A stretch of DNA of 64,000 bases from Methylacidiphilales bacterium (GTDB taxonomy: Bacteria; Verrucomicrobiota; Verrucomicrobiia; Methylacidiphilales; UBA1321), in the NCBI GenBank assembly GCA_021272165.1, contig JAJSLK010000063.1, positions 1 to 64,000 on the forward strand, given 5' to 3'. Under the pieces are notes generated by a model. That model worked only from the letters and a program-made list of their open reading frames with translations, searched no databases and was not told the origin of the DNA. A program made the position numbers and the translations under genes. Shown piece after piece: positions 1 to 36,481 of this stretch. Numbering within the stretch: position 1 is the stretch's first letter; each line of letters starts with the position of its first letter.

Positions 1-762
1 GATGCCGATGAGGCCGGCGGCACCGATGGCCATGTCGCAGAAGCCGGAGAAGTTGCAGTAGAGGTAGAGATAGAAGAAGAGGATGGCGATGGGGAGATCG
101 ATCGAGAGATGAGGATGATCATCCATCAGAAGGCCGGAATAAGTGAGCTGGTTGCAAAGAACACCGAGGAACTGGAACTTGACGAATCCAACGAGAATGC
201 GAAGCGCACACCGACCAATCGGAATCTCCCAAGGAATGGGCTCAAAACCACGGCGGTAATTGGCGTAGGTATTGATGGGGCCGACGGGCATGGTGGGAAG
301 GAAGAAGGAGAAATTGAGGTATTCCCAGAAGCCGGGCTTTTTGACGACGTCATTACGGACCTCAAGCGCAAGTCGGCTGGTGCGAAAGGCGAGATAGGAG
401 ATACCGACCAGTTCAAGCATTTCTCCCGAGTTGGCATGACCCAGTTTGGCAGAGAGCAAGCCGGGGAGGTAACGGACGATAATAAAGGCGCCGATAGGGG
501 TGAAGAAGGCGAGCCAGAATTTCCAATCTTTCGATTCAGAAAAAAGCCAGAGGGTAAGGTATTGAAAAACAATTAGGCCGACATAAAGACCAAAGCGGTC
601 GGCGTAATGAACACGATGTCCATAAAAGAGAAAAAAGTAGACACCGAGAAGATTCAGGATGGCAAAAACCACTTCCCGGGACAGGCCGGTTAGAGATCGC
701 ATGATGCCGCGACCGAGCAGAACATAAACAGCCAAGCCAGGAATAAAATAATTCCCGGACAT
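1..762 (-). CDS. MBOAT-family membrane O-acyltransferase (AlgI-like), 3' end runs off the window
   Basis: Minus-strand frame from ATG at 762 reads MSGNYFIPGLAVYVLLGRGIMRSL...IAILFFYLYLYCNFSGFCDMAIGAAGLIGI. It is open to the window edge, so it is missing from the ORF track. The YCNFSGFCDMAIG segment is MBOAT-like. Confidence 0.85.
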   Translation of the reverse strand, partial: MSGNYFIPGLAVYVLLGRGIMRSLTGLSREVVFAILNLLGVYFFLFYGHRVHYADRFGLYVGLIVFQYLTLWLFSESKDWKFWLAFFTPIGAFIIVRYLPGLLSAKLGHANSGEMLELVGISYLAFRTSRLALEVRNDVVKKPGFWEYLNFSFFLPTMPVGPINTYANYRRGFEPIPWEIPIGRCALRILVGFVKFQFLGVLCNQLTYSGLLMDDHPHLSIDLPIAILFFYLYLYCNFSGFCDMAIGAAGLIGI

Positions 763-764
763 GA

Positions 765-896
765 CTAGAAACCCTGATAAACGCTTTTATTCTCAGCAAA
801 ATGGGGCGGAGCCAGCACCATCAGCCCAGCCGCAATGAGTGGGAGGAGAATCACCAGAGCGTAAATCAGAAGCTCAATGAGAGTTCGGCGCGGCAT
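765..896 (-). CDS. Small single-pass membrane protein (MPRRTLIELLIYALVILLPLIAAGLMVLAPPHFAENKSVYQGF)
   Basis: Hydrophobic helix. Lies between the SGNH and MBOAT genes, overlapping the SGNH gene end. Confidence 0.5.
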   Translation of the reverse strand: MPRRTLIELLIYALVILLPLIAAGLMVLAPPHFAENKSVYQGF

Positions 897-1983
897 ATAA
901 CTCGACCAAGGCAGGGGTGACGAGAGTGGTGAAGTACTTCTGTCCATTTTCATTGAAATGACCGGGGTCTTCGTAGAGCTTCTCGATCTGTTCGTCGGTG
1001 AGATTTCCGAACAATTTCACGGAGGGGATTCCAACCATGTCGAGATTGAGTCCGAAGGCCCCGGGCCAAAATTCCTTTTCCCCAATTTTGGGATCATGCC
1101 GCTCGGCAAACATGGGTAGGTGCAGAAGCACGATCCGGCAGCCATATTGGCGGGACAAGTCGGCAAATTTCCGGGCGAAATGGAGCTGCCATGATGGCAG
1201 ATCATTGGTGAAGTAAAAATCGTCCTTGGTTGCCTCGGAATAGATACGAACGTCAGACGATGTCGCTGTGGTCAGGGGCGCATATTCTTCGAAGGACGTG
1301 CCGGAGGAAGTCGGGGTGGCCGTATAACCATTACGGGTGCGAAGCGAGCCGAGACGTTCGACGATGTCATCGGCGTGTTTGAGAGTTTCCCAAAGTGATT
1401 TTGTCCGTGAAGAAAAGTCCACCGGCTGATTGGAACGAACCATCGAAAGCAAATTCCGAGGCATGCCTAAAATGGAAGCCAGGTAATAATCGATTTTCTT
1501 AAGCAGGGGCAACCCACCAAGGTCGTGGGCATCGTCCGCAAATCGAAACAAGCGCGCGGCCTGGCCGTTGGGAACATCCCATACCTCATAAACATCGTAA
1601 TAGACGATCATGTGAACTTTTCGATGTTGGAGAAGGTCCTGAGTTACGAGGTAGAGCGTGTCGTATCCGGCGCCACCCCAACCGAAGGTGCGGACGGTGG
1701 CCGGCCGCCCCAGTCGTTGACTCAACTGGTTCTGCACGTATGGCGTATCGATGCCATTCCAAATATGGGAGGCACCTATGAATGCGATGTCGATGTCGCC
1801 TTTTTCTCGATAGATTTGCTCATCGATATAAGGGTAAGCGCCGTTAGCCCACCAGAAGGAGGAGTAAATTTGCTCGCGCGAGGGCAGGAGCGATTTACCG
1901 ACCAGGACAGGGGAGAGAAGGATGACCAGCAGAAGAAAGGCAAAGGCGGCGGCCTGCCGAACTGAACCGAAGGCGGGCCGCAT
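874..1983 (-). CDS. SGNH/GDSL-like hydrolase or acyltransferase partner of MBOAT (AlgJ/DltD-type context)
   Basis: 369 aa; N-terminal membrane anchor; DIAFIGASHIWNGID block and C-terminal DPGHFNENGQKYF block; next to the MBOAT gene. Confidence 0.7.
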   Translation of the reverse strand: MRPAFGSVRQAAAFAFLLLVILLSPVLVGKSLLPSREQIYSSFWWANGAYPYIDEQIYREKGDIDIAFIGASHIWNGIDTPYVQNQLSQRLGRPATVRTFGWGGAGYDTLYLVTQDLLQHRKVHMIVYYDVYEVWDVPNGQAARLFRFADDAHDLGGLPLLKKIDYYLASILGMPRNLLSMVRSNQPVDFSSRTKSLWETLKHADDIVERLGSLRTRNGYTATPTSSGTSFEEYAPLTTATSSDVRIYSEATKDDFYFTNDLPSWQLHFARKFADLSRQYGCRIVLLHLPMFAERHDPKIGEKEFWPGAFGLNLDMVGIPSVKLFGNLTDEQIEKLYEDPGHFNENGQKYFTTLVTPALVELYAAPNSH

Positions 1984-2228
1984 CAGCGCTCCTGCGTGCG
2001 TTTGGCGATAAGGTCGGCAAATTCTCCCACGTTGCGGGTGGCCTCAACTTCACCGACGCGAAAACGGACGTTGAAGGCTTTCTCAACGGCGACGACGAGG
2101 GAGATGTGCATGAGGGAATCCCATTCGGGCACGTCCTTGGCGGTGAGGGCCGGGATGAGGGTGACCGGTTCAAGAAAAAGGTCGTCGAAGATGGTCTGCA
2201 ACTTGGCGAGGACGTCAGCTTGGGTCAT
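1983..2228 (-). CDS. Acyl carrier protein
   Basis: 81 aa from ATG at 2228; DSL phosphopantetheine motif in VPEWDSLMHISLVVAVEKAFNVRF. Confidence 0.85.
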   Translation of the reverse strand: MTQADVLAKLQTIFDDLFLEPVTLIPALTAKDVPEWDSLMHISLVVAVEKAFNVRFRVGEVEATRNVGEFADLIAKRTQER

Positions 2229-4083
2229 AAGCGCGGCGTGTGATTTTGATCCTGGTGGGGGTGGGTTGAAAATTTTTGAGGGAGAGTTCAAACTGACGGG
2301 ATTTTTCGTCCTCGGCGACCAGAGTGAAGCCCATGCGGGAATAAAAGTCGCGCACCATTTCGTTCTTGGGCGTGGGGAGATAGAGGCCCTCGAGTTTGGA
2401 ACAATTGCGGGCGGCGGCGAGGCGGGCGAGTTCGTTGAGAACTTCGTCCTCGACCTGGCGCTTGAGGACGCGGCAGCTCATGAGCCAGGTGTCGATTTTC
2501 ATGATGCCATCGACAGCGTGGCCGATGACGATGGAGATGAGGCCGTGATCGCCGAAGCGGTCCTTGAGGCGGACGGAGAAGCCGATGTAGCCGGGCTCGC
2601 GCATGAGGGCCTGGACTTCGGCCTCGGTACGGCGGCGGGTGGTGAGGTTGAACTGGTTGCTTTTGTTGATGAGCTGGGAGAGGCGGGGGACATCGACGGG
2701 GACAAACTCGGTGATGACGGCTTCCATCTCGAGCGATTCAAGATAGACGTTCATGTCGGTGGCGGAAGCCTGGAGTTCCTTGCGACGGGCCTCGGAAAGA
2801 TACTGGCTGGTGCGCTCGGCGTCCTCGGCGGTGAGACTGCGGACCTCGAAGAAGCGGCAATCCTGGAGAAGCGTGGCGTATTCGGAAGGATCAGGGCCGA
2901 GGAGGATGGTGGCAACCTCAGGGACAAACTGGCGGACGATGTCGATCTCGGCGGGGTTGTCGTCGACGAAGACGAAGCTGTCGAGGCCGAGGTTCAGTTC
3001 GGCGGCGATCTGGCGGATGTTGTCGGACTTCGGATCCCAGTTCGCCTTGAAGGCGACGATGTCATCCATCTTGAGGATCATTTCGGGATGCTTTTCAAAG
3101 ACTTCGGCGGCGCGGTGGTGATCGTTTTTGCTGCTGACGGCGAGGAGGACACCGCGGTGCCTGAGCGAGGCGATGTAGCGCTGGAAGGCCTTGAAGGCCT
3201 CGCCGCGGGGCGAGGTGTCGCCGAGTTCGATGCCTTCGAGGCCGTCATCGGCCACGACGCCTCCCCAGAGGGTGTTGTCGAGGTCGAGGACGAGGACTTT
3301 TTTGGGCGCGCGGCGGAGTGAGGCGATGAGGTGGGCGGCCTCGCGGGCGAAATCGACGAGGAGAGCGGGCGAGCAGGGTTGCTTGCTTTCGAACCAGGAG
3401 CGTTCGTCGCGGGCCTGGATGCCGCCGAGGCGGTGGGCGAGGAACTCGAGGTCGCAGATATGAAGATAGGGCGGGGCCTTGAGGCCGAGTTCGAGATTGA
3501 CCCATTTGCGGAAGGTCCAGTCGGAGCCCATGGTGCGAGAGCGGAAAGCGCCGTGATCGTGGCGGGCGGGAAGGATATAATTGGTGGTGATGATTTCGGC
3601 GCTGGTTTTGTCGTGGGCGCGGGCGATGAGTTGCAGAAGGGAATCGACGACGCGGGTGGCCTCAGCCTGCTGCAATTCGCGCGGGTCGGTGAGCTTGCCG
3701 GGGTAGCGGCAGCGGTTTTCCGAGGGCATGAGCAGGACGACCCTGGGCGCGAAGGCATAGAGTCCGCTCGACTCGTCCATGATTTCGGAGATGTAGTTAT
3801 CGAAATCGCCTTTCCAGAGTTCGCAGGGGGAACCTTCGAGCTCGCAAATATGCTCGAGGAGTTCGTGGAATGGATAGAGGCTGTAGCCGCCGAGGAGGGC
3901 GACGCGGATTTTTTCGGACGCGGGCTTGGGCGGCGCGAGATGACGGGCATGGGCTTTTTTGCGCAGGGACGAGAGGATGAAAAGCTCGTCGAAAGCGCGG
4001 GCTTCACGGGTCTGCTGCCGGAGGAGTTCCCAAAATTCCGGAGCGCCGTCCAAAAGCAGTTTTTTGAGGCGGCTGGTGTCCAT
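2215..4083 (-). CDS. FkbH-like HAD-IIIC family protein
   Basis: 622 aa; HAD motif KKVLVLDLDNTLWGGVVADDG; C-terminal GNAT-like region; adjacent ACP. Confidence 0.88.
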   Translation of the reverse strand: MDTSRLKKLLLDGAPEFWELLRQQTREARAFDELFILSSLRKKAHARHLAPPKPASEKIRVALLGGYSLYPFHELLEHICELEGSPCELWKGDFDNYISEIMDESSGLYAFAPRVVLLMPSENRCRYPGKLTDPRELQQAEATRVVDSLLQLIARAHDKTSAEIITTNYILPARHDHGAFRSRTMGSDWTFRKWVNLELGLKAPPYLHICDLEFLAHRLGGIQARDERSWFESKQPCSPALLVDFAREAAHLIASLRRAPKKVLVLDLDNTLWGGVVADDGLEGIELGDTSPRGEAFKAFQRYIASLRHRGVLLAVSSKNDHHRAAEVFEKHPEMILKMDDIVAFKANWDPKSDNIRQIAAELNLGLDSFVFVDDNPAEIDIVRQFVPEVATILLGPDPSEYATLLQDCRFFEVRSLTAEDAERTSQYLSEARRKELQASATDMNVYLESLEMEAVITEFVPVDVPRLSQLINKSNQFNLTTRRRTEAEVQALMREPGYIGFSVRLKDRFGDHGLISIVIGHAVDGIMKIDTWLMSCRVLKRQVEDEVLNELARLAAARNCSKLEGLYLPTPKNEMVRDFYSRMGFTLVAEDEKSRQFELSLKNFQPTPTRIKITRRAYDPS

Positions 4084-5302: not shown

Positions 5303-6121
5303 CTAGATCACGTCGGCGAAGGTTTTCTCGGTTTTGCGGAAGTACCAAACGCCGAGGAGAGCGAAGAAGACGGTGACGGAAAGCGAGACGAGGAAGCTGG
5401 AGAACATGAAACCGCCACGGCCGTCGAGGAGGGCCCAGCGAAAGCCGTCGATGACGCCGACCATGGGGTTGAGGGAGTAGAGCCAGCGCCATTGGTCAGG
5501 CACCGCGGAACTGGGAAAGCCGACGGGCGAGACGTAGGTGCCGATCTGGACGATGAAGGGGATGATGTAACGGAAGTCGCGATATTTGACGTTGAGCGCG
5601 GTGAGGAGAAGGCCGGGGCCAAGTGCGGCGAGGAAAGCCATGATGATAAGAAGCGGGATGACAATGAAACGCCAGGTGGGAATGAACTGGTACCAGAGCA
5701 TGAGAATGAGCAGGAGCACGAAGGTGATGAGGAAATCGACGAGGGCGGTGATGACGGCGCCGGCCGGGATGATCATGCGGGGGAAGTAGACCTTGGAGAT
5801 GAGGTTGGAATTGGCCACGAGGCTCTGGCTGGAGCCGGTGAGCGAGGTGGAGAAGAATTGCCACGGGAGCATTCCGGCCATGACGAGGAGCGGATAGGGG
5901 ACACCGCCGGGCGGGATTTTGGCGAGCTTGCCGAAGATGACGGTGAAGATGATGGTGGCGAGGAGAGGCTGAAGAATGGCCCAGATGATGCCGATGGCGG
6001 TCTGCTTATAGCGGACGGAGATGTCGCGCCAGGCGAGGACGTAGAAGAGCTCGCGATAATGCCAGAGATCGCGCCAATACTGGCGCTCGATCCGTCCGGG
6101 TTCGATGATGATGCGGGCCAT
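5303..6121 (-). CDS. ABC-2 type polysaccharide export permease
   Basis: 272 aa from MARIIIEPGRIERQYWRDLWHYRELFYVLAWRDISVRYKQTAIGIIWAILQPL. The N-terminal part of ORF 5303..7144 is an out-of-frame extension. Confidence 0.9.
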   Translation of the reverse strand: MARIIIEPGRIERQYWRDLWHYRELFYVLAWRDISVRYKQTAIGIIWAILQPLLATIIFTVIFGKLAKIPPGGVPYPLLVMAGMLPWQFFSTSLTGSSQSLVANSNLISKVYFPRMIIPAGAVITALVDFLITFVLLLILMLWYQFIPTWRFIVIPLLIIMAFLAALGPGLLLTALNVKYRDFRYIIPFIVQIGTYVSPVGFPSSAVPDQWRWLYSLNPMVGVIDGFRWALLDGRGGFMFSSFLVSLSVTVFFALLGVWYFRKTEKTFADVI

Positions 6122-6155: not shown

Positions 6156-7430
6156 TCAATAAGCGAAGGCGGCGCGGCGGGTGGGCGCGGGATGGGCGGC
6201 GACGGCCTCCTCGTAGAACCGGCTGATAGCCGCGCCCATGGTGCGCATGGTGAATTTTTCGTGAACACGGGCGCGGGCCTGTTCAGAGAGTTTGGCAAGG
6301 AGTGCGCGGTCGCGGGAGACGCGGGTGAGAAAACCGGCCATGGCTTCGATGGCTTCCTGCGGATCGTGGATCGGCGCGACGAAGCCGGTCTCGGCGGTGA
6401 CCTGCGAGGCGGGTCCGCCGATGTCGAGGCAGACGACGGGCCGTCCGGCGGCCATCGCTTCCATGCAGACATTGCCGAAGGCTTCGTGGAGCGCGGGATG
6501 CATGAGAACATGGGCTTGGGCGAGCTTGGCCAGGACATCGGCGTAGGAGGGCAGATGGCCGAAGAAGCGGATGCGGTCGGCGACGCCGGTCCGGGCCGCG
6601 ATTTCCTCGAGGTTGGGGCGGAAGGGGCCGTTGTTGATGAGCCAGAGTTCGGCTTCGGGATCGTTTTTGGCGAAAAGGCCGAAGGCGCGGATGGCGAGAT
6701 GGAAGCCTTTCCAATGCAGGAGCCGGCCCATGCAGATGGCGCGAAAAGGCCCGGGCGGCGGCGACGGAAATTTGCCGAAAGTTTCGAGTTCGTCAGCGGC
6801 AAGGGCGGCCTGGGGGAGCTGCTCGACGCGGCGGACGCCGAGGTCGCGGATGGCTTCGCAGGCCTCACGGGAGACACCGATACCGATGGTGGCGGCGCGG
6901 GCGGTGGCGCGGAGGGCGGGATCGCGTTGCGAGACGGCGCGGATGAAATCGCGAACGAATTCAAACCAGCGCTCGCGGATGGGCAGCTCGGCCAGGAAGG
7001 CGGACGGAGCATACTCGGCCGCACCGACCGGGCCCCAGATGAAGGGGATGCCGAGATCGCGGATGCCGCAGGGCGACCAGTAGCGACCGAAGGTGACGTG
7101 ATGGACGAGGTCGAAGCCGATTTCGTCGTGCAATTTCTGGGCAATGCCGAGCATTTTGTGCTGCCAGAGATGATAATAGACGCAGCCGAGCATTCCCGGA
7201 CGGCGCAGAGCGCGGACCATCCAGTGGGGCAACTGGAAGAAGACGGGATGGAAGCGGGGCATGGGATTTTCGGCGAGGTAACTCATCATGCCGGGTTCGT
7301 ACTCGCTTTTTTCGATGAGGGCCCAGACTTCGTGGCCCTCGGCGAGGGCGTGGTTGACGGAACGCCAGGCGTTGCCGGGCTCGGAGGTTTTGCAGGGCGC
7401 GCAGGAATAGGCGGAGAGCAGAATCTTCAT
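6156..7430 (-). CDS. Glycosyltransferase family 4
   Basis: 424 aa; [25 protein letters not shown] start and C-terminal [31 protein letters not shown]. Confidence 0.88.
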
Positions 7431-8143
7431 GCGGCTTTTTCCGGAGCATGGGCATGGCCGCTTCTGGTGCCGACTTCCCGCGCGGGATTACCGGCAAAGA
7501 TGGCGTTGGCCGGGATGTTACGGGTCACGACGGCGCCGGCGCCGATGATGGCGTAGTCGCCGATCTCGACGCCCTTGAGGACGATGGCGCGGGCGCCAAT
7601 GAAGACGCTGCGGCCGATGCGGATGGGACGGGCGCCTTCGCTATATTCGTTGCGCCAGGTGCCATCGGGCTCGAGGACGTGGAAATCGTTGTCGATGATC
7701 ATGGCGCCGGAGCCGAGGATGGTGTCGTCGCCGATGGTGATTTCTTTTCCAGCACAAAGGACGGCGGCGCTGAGGCCGACGCGCGCGCCGAGACGGAGCT
7801 CGGCCCCGGGGGCAAGGGTGCGCAGGACGGAGGGTTGCGGGCAGCCGAGAGGATTGGAGCGGAGCGCGCTGACAATGCGAACGCCTTCAGAGAGGATGAT
7901 GCGGGAATTGGGCGCGACGCTGATCATGGGGCGACCGACAAAGACAATGCCCTGGCCACACTCGACGCCTTTGATGTCAGCTTCAGCCTGCCAAAGAAAA
8001 CTGGGGAAGGAACGGAGCCAGGAAACAAACCGGCCAAGGGCGTGCGCGGAATTCACAGATAAACTCTTTGCTTCGAGGATGCCATTCGTCCATTTTGACA
8101 GCGTGCGAGTGGCGATATTGGCAAACTTTCCCCTGCATGTCAT
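7427..8143 (-). CDS. Left-handed beta-helix (hexapeptide) acyltransferase; start uncertain
   Basis: C-terminal [50 protein letters not shown] is hexapeptide-repeat sequence. The annotated N-terminus overlaps the divergent GT gene, so the real start may be further downstream. Confidence 0.85.
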
Positions 8144-9279: not shown

Positions 9280-10329
9280 GTGGTGAATTCGCCTTCTTCA
9301 CAATCTGTCGTGACCTTAAAGAACTTTCCGTGGACATGGCGGAACATTCTCGCGATTGCGGCGGCCCTGGTGATGTGCTGGGTGTTGCTGGATGCCGTCC
9401 TTTATTGCGACACTTCGTATCGCGCGACGTTCGGCAATAATCGATGCACGCTGGTGGGGCTTTTTCTCAGCACGTTCTGGGGTGATATCCGGGACCAGAT
9501 CAGTGGTTTCTTTTCCTCGACGCCGACGGGATCGCTGGCGGGAGAAATCACGGCGACGGAATGGACGCAATGCGTGCTGGTGCCACCGATCGTGTTCTAT
9601 CTGGTCTGGTGGCTGTGGCCCCGGCTGCGCGAATTGCCGGTGCGCGGATCGGTGACGGGATATTCGATCGTGGCGGCGGGGCTGGCGTTTTATGTGCTGG
9701 GGTACATGGCGGAAAATTATTATGTCGGCGTGATGTCGATGCAGCTTGTTTACGCAGGGCTGATCGTGCTTTTCCTCGGCTGGGTGATGATGCGGGCGCT
9801 GCTGTTTCCGTGGGCGTTTCTTTTTTTCATGTGGCCCTATGGTTTTTTCGAGGATGTGGCGTTCCAACTGCGGATGATCATGTCGAACCTGAGCCACCAC
9901 GTGCTGCTCTGGATGGGCGTGGGCAATGTGCTAAACGGGACGGCGATCATGTCGCCGCCGGGCACGAGCCCCTCCTTTGGGATCGATATCGCTGATCCAT
10001 GCAGCGGCATCCGTTCACTCTTCGCGCTGGTGATGATCGCGGCGCTCTACGCCTTTCTTTCCTTCCGTCACACGTGGCAGAAGGTGGTGATTGTCCTGGT
10101 GTCGTTGCCGCTGGTGATTCTGGGAAATCTGGTGCGCATCCTGATGCTGACGATCGCGAACATCCATTTCGGTGAGGCGTTCGCGCTCGGCACCAACGAC
10201 CATCCTTCGTGGTTTCATGAAGGTGCGGGTTATCTGGTTTACATCATCAATTTTGCCGGATTGATCGGCCTGGGCACGATTTTGTCGCGGTTGGGATCGC
10301 ATCCTGAAAAGGAGAAAACGGCTGCATGA
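9280..10329 (+). CDS. Exosortase/archaeosortase family protein
   Basis: Polytopic; catalytic-type motifs DPCSGIRSLFAL, NLVRILMLT and HEGAGYLVY. Confidence 0.88.
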   Translation: MVNSPSSQSVVTLKNFPWTWRNILAIAAALVMCWVLLDAVLYCDTSYRATFGNNRCTLVGLFLSTFWGDIRDQISGFFSSTPTGSLAGEITATEWTQCVLVPPIVFYLVWWLWPRLRELPVRGSVTGYSIVAAGLAFYVLGYMAENYYVGVMSMQLVYAGLIVLFLGWVMMRALLFPWAFLFFMWPYGFFEDVAFQLRMIMSNLSHHVLLWMGVGNVLNGTAIMSPPGTSPSFGIDIADPCSGIRSLFALVMIAALYAFLSFRHTWQKVVIVLVSLPLVILGNLVRILMLTIANIHFGEAFALGTNDHPSWFHEGAGYLVYIINFAGLIGLGTILSRLGSHPEKEKTAA

Positions 10330-11096
10330 GTTCTCCCTTCGAAATCAGCCCGGTAAAGAGCGTGATCGTTTTGGTGCTGGGCCTTTTGACTGTGATCGTT
10401 TGCTGGACGATTCCACCGGCCAAGGAGGCGGATGATACCGGGGTGGTGATGGATCTGCCGTTCCAGATCGGGCCGCTCTTCGGATTTCATGAGGATGTGA
10501 GCAAGGCGGAGCTGGAAATCCTGCCTCCGGACACGACGTTCGCCCGCAAGAGTTACGGGGCTATCGGTTCCGATCAACTGGACCGGATTCTTTGCTCAAT
10601 TGTTTTGAGCGGACGGGAAAAGCGAAGTATTCACCGGCCCGAGCGATGCCTGCCAGGTCAAGGCTGGAATGTGATCGGCTCGAACGTGGTCGACGTGCCT
10701 TTGGCCTCAGGTCATCCGCTGAAAGTGATGGCGTTGCTGTTGAACCGACCGGTGACCTTGTCCAACGGGACGATCTCGCACCTGGAGGCTTATTATCTCT
10801 ACTGGTATGTGGGGCGAAATGTGACGACGCCGTATAGTTTTCAGCGCGTGATGCTGACCAACTGGGACCTGATTGTGCACCGGGCCAACCAGCGCTGGGC
10901 CTATGTCATCGTGATGGCGCCCATCACCGAGGGTTTTTTACCGAACGGACGGACCGCCGACCAGACGCTGTTTATGCTCAAGCAATTCATCCGTGCGAGT
11001 GTCCCCTCTTTTGTGAAAATGGAGATGCCGAGTTTCCAGTCAGCCGGGATTTCCCCGAAGCAGGTTGAAGCCGGGCTTTACGCCACGGGCCACTAA
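10326..11096 (+). CDS. EpsI-domain (exosortase-associated) protein
   Basis: ATGA overlap with the exosortase gene; SIHRPERCLPGQGWNV matches the EpsI H-P-E-x-C-x-P-x-Q-G-W signature. Confidence 0.8.
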   Translation: MSSPFEISPVKSVIVLVLGLLTVIVCWTIPPAKEADDTGVVMDLPFQIGPLFGFHEDVSKAELEILPPDTTFARKSYGAIGSDQLDRILCSIVLSGREKRSIHRPERCLPGQGWNVIGSNVVDVPLASGHPLKVMALLLNRPVTLSNGTISHLEAYYLYWYVGRNVTTPYSFQRVMLTNWDLIVHRANQRWAYVIVMAPITEGFLPNGRTADQTLFMLKQFIRASVPSFVKMEMPSFQSAGISPKQVEAGLYATGH

Positions 11097-36396: not shown

Positions 36397-36398
36397 TG

Positions 36399-36481
36399 TG
36401 CCGGTGGAGGGACTTGAACCCCCACTTACTTGCGTAAAACAGATTTTGAGTCTGTCGCGTCTGCCATTTCGCCACACCGGC
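36399..36481 (-). tRNA. tRNA-Leu (anticodon CAA)
   Basis: GCCGGTG TG GCGAAATGGCAGACGC G ACAGA-CTCAAAA-TCTGT TTTACGCAAGTAAGT GGGGG-TTCAAGT-CCCTC CACCGGC A; acceptor, anticodon, long variable and T arms pair. Confidence 0.95.
36444..36481. repeat. Left copy of tRNA-Leu 5'-half direct repeat (candidate att site)
   Basis: ttttgagtctgtcgcgtctgccatttcgccacaccggc; 36/38 identical to 53744-53781 in the same orientation. Confidence 0.8.

Follow-up and report, generated by a model that had tools for sequence, protein, structure and literature searches.

A probable Dlt-like acylation relay, with an FkbH-type enzyme in place of DltA, in a Methylacidiphilales polysaccharide locus

The stretch of DNA analysed here (the window) comprises 64,000 nucleotides at the start of contig C7 (JAJSLK010000063.1) of the draft genome of a Methylacidiphilales bacterium (2.87 Mb, 88% complete). 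Its first 4,083 bases carry, on the minus strand and in this order, genes for an FkbH-type enzyme, an acyl carrier protein (ACP), an SGNH-like protein, a DltX-like microprotein and a DltB-type membrane-bound O-acyltransferase (MBOAT), the last cut by the contig start (Table 1). The ends of the FkbH, ACP, SGNH and microprotein genes overlap and the MBOAT start lies two bases past the microprotein stop, so that the spacing from FkbH to MBOAT is as in a translationally coupled operon. Contig C7 begins inside the MBOAT gene (base 1), and residues equivalent to 365-404 of a relative's MBOAT are encoded on another contig, C54, at the start of which lies the MBOAT 3' end, with a VOC-family gene no more than nine bases behind it. 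From these two MBOAT halves we infer that C7 and C54 are adjacent, one polysaccharide locus being split by an assembly gap. A preliminary description of this DNA had named a four-gene FkbH-ACP-SGNH-MBOAT cassette; all four genes are indeed present on the minus strand, but the microprotein and the VOC gene, the most telling for mechanism, had been overlooked.

Table 1. Cassette genes and the neighbouring exporter gene (window coordinates unless a locus is given).
Feature	Coordinates	Strand	Product	Basis or remark
FkbH-type enzyme	2215..4083	-	622 aa	TIGR01686 1e-96; 3SLR; invariant residues
Acyl carrier protein	1983..2228	-	81 aa, DSL motif, Ser38	Pfam PP-binding
Membrane-anchored SGNH-type protein	874..1983	-	369 aa; Ser72, His342	Alignment of relatives, AlphaFold2 model, DltD folds
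DltX-like microprotein	765..896	-	43 aa, one membrane span, C-terminal SVYQGF	
DltB-type MBOAT, N-terminal 254 residues	1..762	-		TIGR04091 1e-19; 3' end on contig C54
VOC-family gene	L095:131-556 (contig C54 of the same genome)			Directly after MBOAT
Wzm-like polysaccharide ABC exporter permease	5303..6100	-		NF050109 7e-14, KpsM 2e-12, both under curated cut-offs

The FkbH-type enzyme scored 323.9 bits against NCBIfam TIGR01686, well over the curated cut-off of 146.65, and matched PDB entry 3SLR at E=2e-56. It consists of an N-terminal domain, a HAD-IIIC phosphatase domain and a C-terminal GNAT-fold domain with Cys537. Residues D267, D269, T271, S318, K319, K352, D374 and D375 of the HAD domain were invariant in an alignment of 83 sequences, three of which were FkbH proteins from polyketide-type clusters on plasmids, and C537 was the sole invariant Cys; these HAD residues and C537 are common to the cassette enzymes and to all three proteins of the polyketide-type clusters. 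A Foldseek search with the predicted structure returned 3SLR (2e-31) and GNAT folds (4e-8), with C537 inside the GNAT-fold domain that follows the domain pair matching 3SLR, and C537 is the predicted acyl acceptor. Published work credits FkbH-type proteins with making glyceryl-ACP from 1,3-bisphosphoglycerate (PMC7489565; PMC3679948), and formation of glyceryl-ACP by an FkbH-type protein has been put forward as a proposal elsewhere (PMC13122637). As both the HAD residues and C537 are kept, glyceryl is the likeliest cargo, glycerate being predicted as the acyl group by homology with FkbH enzymes. The cassette proteins cluster in a separate clade of the FkbH tree; the closest relative of the window's FkbH (locus L003) is 80% identical, and the tree also places the window protein nearest to those of Verrucomicrobiota.

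The carrier protein matched Pfam PP-binding over the cut-off. Its residues Ser38, Trp36 and Phe18 were invariant in 73 relatives, and Ser38, in the DSL motif, is the predicted phosphopantetheine site. A longer, TTG-started frame for this gene (to 2291) was dropped; the ATG at 2228 gives the length of most relatives.

DltB is the closest curated model for the MBOAT. The fragment in the window matched the DltB model TIGR04091 at E=1e-19 and full-length relatives matched it at E 2e-32 to 3e-60, while the full-length members tested (112 to 204 bits) fell below its equivalog cut-off of 375 bits. The catalytic His327 and other residues were invariant in 53 relatives, in a stretch that is unassembled in the window's genome. 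In the Dlt pathway, DltB moves D-alanine from a carrier protein to the Tyr of a C-terminal F-x-Y-x-x-F motif in DltX, from where it passes to DltD, an SGNH protein; in coenzyme A (CoA)-dependent MBOAT/SGNH systems this motif is found on the MBOAT itself (PMC12148441). F-x-Y-x-x-F is absent from the C-terminus of the MBOATs in microprotein cassettes, that of the nearest relative L003 included. Between the SGNH and MBOAT genes an open reading frame (ORF) encodes MPRRTLIELLIYALVILLPLIAAGLMVLAPPHFAENKSVYQGF, which fits DltX in length, in having a single span and in its Tyr motif at the C-terminus. This product has a DltX-like layout, with one span, the C-terminal Tyr motif and its gene beside the MBOAT, if the first Phe of the motif is relaxed. 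A phmmer search with the window's microprotein and no motif condition found ORFs at the same place in relatives, with E values down to 6e-10. The microprotein is under purifying selection: non-synonymous polymorphism was below synonymous (pN<pS) in 28 of 28 comparable close pairs, although the pairs are not independent. Its Tyr is invariant in the alignment, partly by construction of the search described next.

Across 80 FkbH loci, the surroundings of 55 MBOAT hits were searched for microproteins, with a Y-x-x-F ending required. A microprotein-type ORF adjoined 44 of the 55 MBOATs, all of them lacking a C-terminal motif of their own; eight had a fused motif and no microprotein, none had both, and three had neither by this search. 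In one of these three the microprotein gene is displaced to a place between ACP and SGNH; the remaining two are either chimeric or truncated where a contig ends. Applied to random anchors, this search gave a pass rate of 1.7%. Five FkbH/ACP/MBOAT loci fetched later, with extended flanks, were all of the fused kind (5/5), as is that of Sinorhizobium meliloti; these test the either/or rule rather than the microprotein. Overall, 14 FkbH/ACP-linked MBOATs carry a fused C-terminal motif and none of these also has a microprotein. The FkbH tree requires at least five interchanges between the separate and fused forms, and two sister sequences from Melainabacteria differ in this respect. The microprotein gene lies 3' of the MBOAT gene in Lachnospiraceae, Planctomycetota and Rhizobacter. 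A 2025 study stated that non-Dlt MBOAT/SGNH pathways have neither a carrier protein nor a DltX-like microprotein (PMC12148441); unlike that statement, the FkbH cassette has both. By analogy with DltX, we propose that the microprotein may act as an acyl shuttle via Tyr40.

The SGNH-like protein had no match in Pfam or NCBIfam, and a PDB search with its single sequence also gave none; its best profile match was PatB, at a weak E=1.1. In an alignment of 40 relatives, Ser72 was conserved at 98% and His342 was invariant, and the AlphaFold2 model had a mean predicted local distance difference test score of 93. This protein is proposed to be the final O-acyltransferase, in the role of DltD or PatB. 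Tandem SGNH copies occur within the cassette at L012:10325-12829, L006:3629-7221 and L013:10052-12568, and L012 also holds a second microprotein, which ends in HAVYQGF.

A VOC gene stands beside FkbH-ACP at 14 loci (L095, L003, L004, L006, L007, L008, L024, L025, L031, L038, L068, L073, L086 and L090), and near FkbH-ACP at further loci beyond these. Its product has invariant residues His14, Glu61, His86 and Glu137 and matches methylmalonyl-CoA epimerase weakly. Glyoxalase I-type and epimerase-type VOC enzymes act on C-H bonds adjacent to thioesters. Such chemistry would suit C2 of glyceryl-ACP, making the VOC protein a candidate epimerase or isomerase of glyceryl-ACP.

The cassette recurs well beyond the window's genome, as a survey of the block in other genomes, suggested in the preliminary description, bears out. 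ACP accompanies FkbH in 74 of 80 loci, and the five-gene block is complete in 34 of these 80 related loci, distributed over at least six phyla (Acidobacteriota, Verrucomicrobiota, Pseudomonadota, Melainabacteria, Myxococcota and Armatimonadota). Since 30 of the 34 complete loci are collinear, the arrangement is not due to chance. Within the window's own phylum, 43 of 289 genomes have an FkbH over the cut-off. On S. meliloti pSymB (L090:3291-9311, L083) a stand-alone cassette encodes a VOC protein, an MBOAT with a fused FLYQGF, an SGNH-like protein, ACP and FkbH; the SGNH-like protein is annotated there as a TonB-dependent receptor. FkbH-ACP pairs with no detected MBOAT were seen in Acetobacteraceae and relatives (L061, L064, L067, L069-L072, L079-L082 and L084), that of Niveispirillum with a WcbI-like gene, and possibly feed other acyltransferases. 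FkbH domains in frames of ~3,500-4,200 codons from Verrucomicrobiota (L096, L101, L107, L110 and L116) were set aside, being probably parts of polyketide synthase (PKS) or non-ribosomal peptide synthetase (NRPS) megasynthases. Literature linking FkbH to MBOAT, exopolysaccharide, capsule or O-antigen did not describe the cassette, which is weak evidence given that subscription papers mostly fell outside the scope of the search.

The cassette belongs to an ABC-exported polysaccharide locus. Beyond it the window encodes the Wzm-like permease, glycosyltransferases, an exosortase and EpsI; beyond the VOC gene, C54 encodes glycosyltransferases, FkbM methyltransferases, a sugar epimerase and a Wzt ATPase with a C-terminal sugar-binding domain (Wzt_C). 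Because glycosyltransferase, Wzm/Wzt and exosortase genes flank the cassette, the acceptor is most likely the polysaccharide, presumably an exopolysaccharide, of this locus. The exosortase and EpsI form a pair at 9280-11096. The same locus holds a hexapeptide-repeat acetyltransferase (7427-8143), and ordinary acetylation of the glycan is therefore likely as well. The only tRNA gene of the 64 kb window, tRNA-Leu (caa), lies at 36398-36481.

Comparison with known systems places the cassette nearest to Dlt (DltX-A-B-C-D), which D-alanylates teichoic acids in Gram-positive bacteria. Both combine in one operon a carrier protein, a DltB-like MBOAT and a membrane SGNH protein, with a single-span microprotein of ~43 aa bearing a C-terminal Tyr motif, and the predicted SGNH fold is DltD-like (a weak match). 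In contrast to Dlt, the cassette has an FkbH-type HAD/GNAT enzyme where Dlt has the adenylating DltA, and glyceryl rather than D-alanine is expected; its microprotein falls outside the DltX family, its hosts are mostly of Gram-negative phyla, and it is set in a polysaccharide export locus. No match to the DltA model TIGR01734 over the cut-off was found in the 88%-complete genome, which has weak adenylate-forming relatives elsewhere and none in the cassette. With no DltA, no DltX match, an MBOAT under the DltB cut-off and an SGNH protein without a DltD family match, the cassette would work like Dlt but is not Dlt. In PatA/PatB and AlgI/AlgX(J), too, an MBOAT and an extracytoplasmic SGNH protein acylate an envelope polymer with the help of a C-terminal Tyr motif; these systems, however, use acetyl-CoA and no carrier protein, and carry the motif on the MBOAT C-terminus. 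With the glyceryl-ACP modules of tetronate, methoxymalonate and glycerate-NRPS pathways the cassette shares the HAD active site, the invariant Cys and a discrete ACP next to FkbH. There glyceryl-ACP feeds a PKS or NRPS, whereas the cassette has an MBOAT/SGNH relay, no ketosynthase, FabH-like or dehydrogenase gene, and an FkbH in a separate clade.

We consider it probable that the cassette forms a Dlt-like relay for transmembrane acylation, with FkbH in the place of DltA, and glycerylates an exported polysaccharide. The anatomy of the relay is well supported; its cargo and acceptor are predicted, and its chemistry would follow that of Dlt and PatAB by analogy. FkbH would take a glyceryl group from 1,3-bisphosphoglycerate onto Cys537, the phosphate would be stripped by the HAD domain, and glyceryl would then be loaded on ACP. 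Where a VOC protein is encoded in the cassette, it may act as an epimerase on C2 of the thioester-bound acyl group. The MBOAT would receive the acyl group from ACP at the cytoplasmic side and hand it on, at the outer face, to the microprotein's Tyr40. From the microprotein the group would move to the SGNH serine, and the SGNH protein would link it as an ester to a hydroxyl group of the polysaccharide that this locus exports. The earlier suggestion that an ACP delivers an unusual acyl group, instead of plain O-acetylation, is thus well supported by the frequency of ACP beside FkbH, by the conserved FkbH catalytic residues, and by the pairing of the MBOAT with a DltX-like microprotein, hitherto known from carrier-dependent Dlt alone (PMC12148441).

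Several observations weigh against this interpretation. The microprotein had no Pfam match, DltX (PF12459) included, at E up to 10 and none in NCBIfam, and PF12459 found nothing in the window's genome in a search that detected the Bacillus subtilis and Lactococcus lactis controls. Kinship with DltX is accordingly not claimed, and the likeness may be convergent; in these microproteins L, V or I mostly takes the place of the first Phe in F-x-Y-x-x-F. Nor does use of a carrier protein require a separate microprotein, as the motif is part of the MBOAT itself in some FkbH/ACP-linked cases. DltD took the three top places among PDB fold matches of the SGNH model, at a weak level (E ~3e-3, TM ~0.3), and the middle of the window's MBOAT, with the catalytic His, is absent from the assembly. 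The identity of the acyl group rests on the FkbH enzyme family, and the literature search found no biochemistry for any cassette member. Finally, no polysaccharide genes flank the S. meliloti pSymB cassette, so the acceptor may differ between hosts.

It is also conceivable, if rather unlikely, that the same relay carries a cargo other than glyceryl: lactyl, phosphoglyceryl, or a glyceryl group that the VOC protein or a methyltransferase has modified. The VOC genes adjoining FkbH-ACP at 14 loci, the FkbM and other methyltransferases within the split locus, and a methyltransferase and VOC gene adjoining FkbH in Paroceanicella are consistent with such a cargo. Yet every HAD and Cys residue is common to FkbH of polyketide-type clusters, the window has no tailoring gene from FkbH to MBOAT, and the methyltransferase genes of the locus are transcribed convergently to the cassette, and their products may have sugars as substrates. 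An acceptor other than polysaccharide (a lipid, lipid A or a protein), which concerns the last step alone and overlaps the other alternatives, is improbable here; the stand-alone VOC-MBOAT-SGNH-ACP-FkbH cassette of S. meliloti would suit it, but that of the window is embedded among glycosyltransferase, Wzm/Wzt, exosortase and epimerase genes. Ordinary CoA-dependent O-acetylation by the MBOAT and SGNH proteins beside an unrelated, merely neighbouring FkbH-ACP pathway is very unlikely: although characterised MBOAT/SGNH pairs mostly transfer acetyl from acetyl-CoA (PMC12148441) and FkbH-ACP pairs are known with no detected MBOAT, as in Acetobacteraceae, the same gene order and overlapping frames recur in at least six phyla, the DltB-type MBOAT lacks a fused motif and is paired with a DltX-like microprotein, and the cassette FkbH proteins form their own clade.

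A Dlt-like relay fed by FkbH would extend the acyl-Tyr shuttle with a separate microprotein and a carrier protein past D-alanylation, relay microproteins of this kind having previously been thought limited to the Gram-positive Dlt pathway, and would join a carrier-loading enzyme of polyketide and peptide antibiotics to cell-surface chemistry. The cassette would make the glyceryl substituents of polysaccharides accessible to genetics, and its presence in cultured Edaphobacter, in S. meliloti 2011 (fused form) and in gut Lachnospiraceae makes it testable now. More tentatively, there may be a widespread class of carrier-dependent, DltX-like MBOAT/SGNH relays that put glycerate, L-configured via a VOC epimerase in some lineages, on surface polysaccharides. 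If so, this class would account for the making of glyceryl esters in bacterial polysaccharides, and the acyl-shuttle peptide would be a general module, free-standing as a microprotein in some cases and part of the MBOAT in others.

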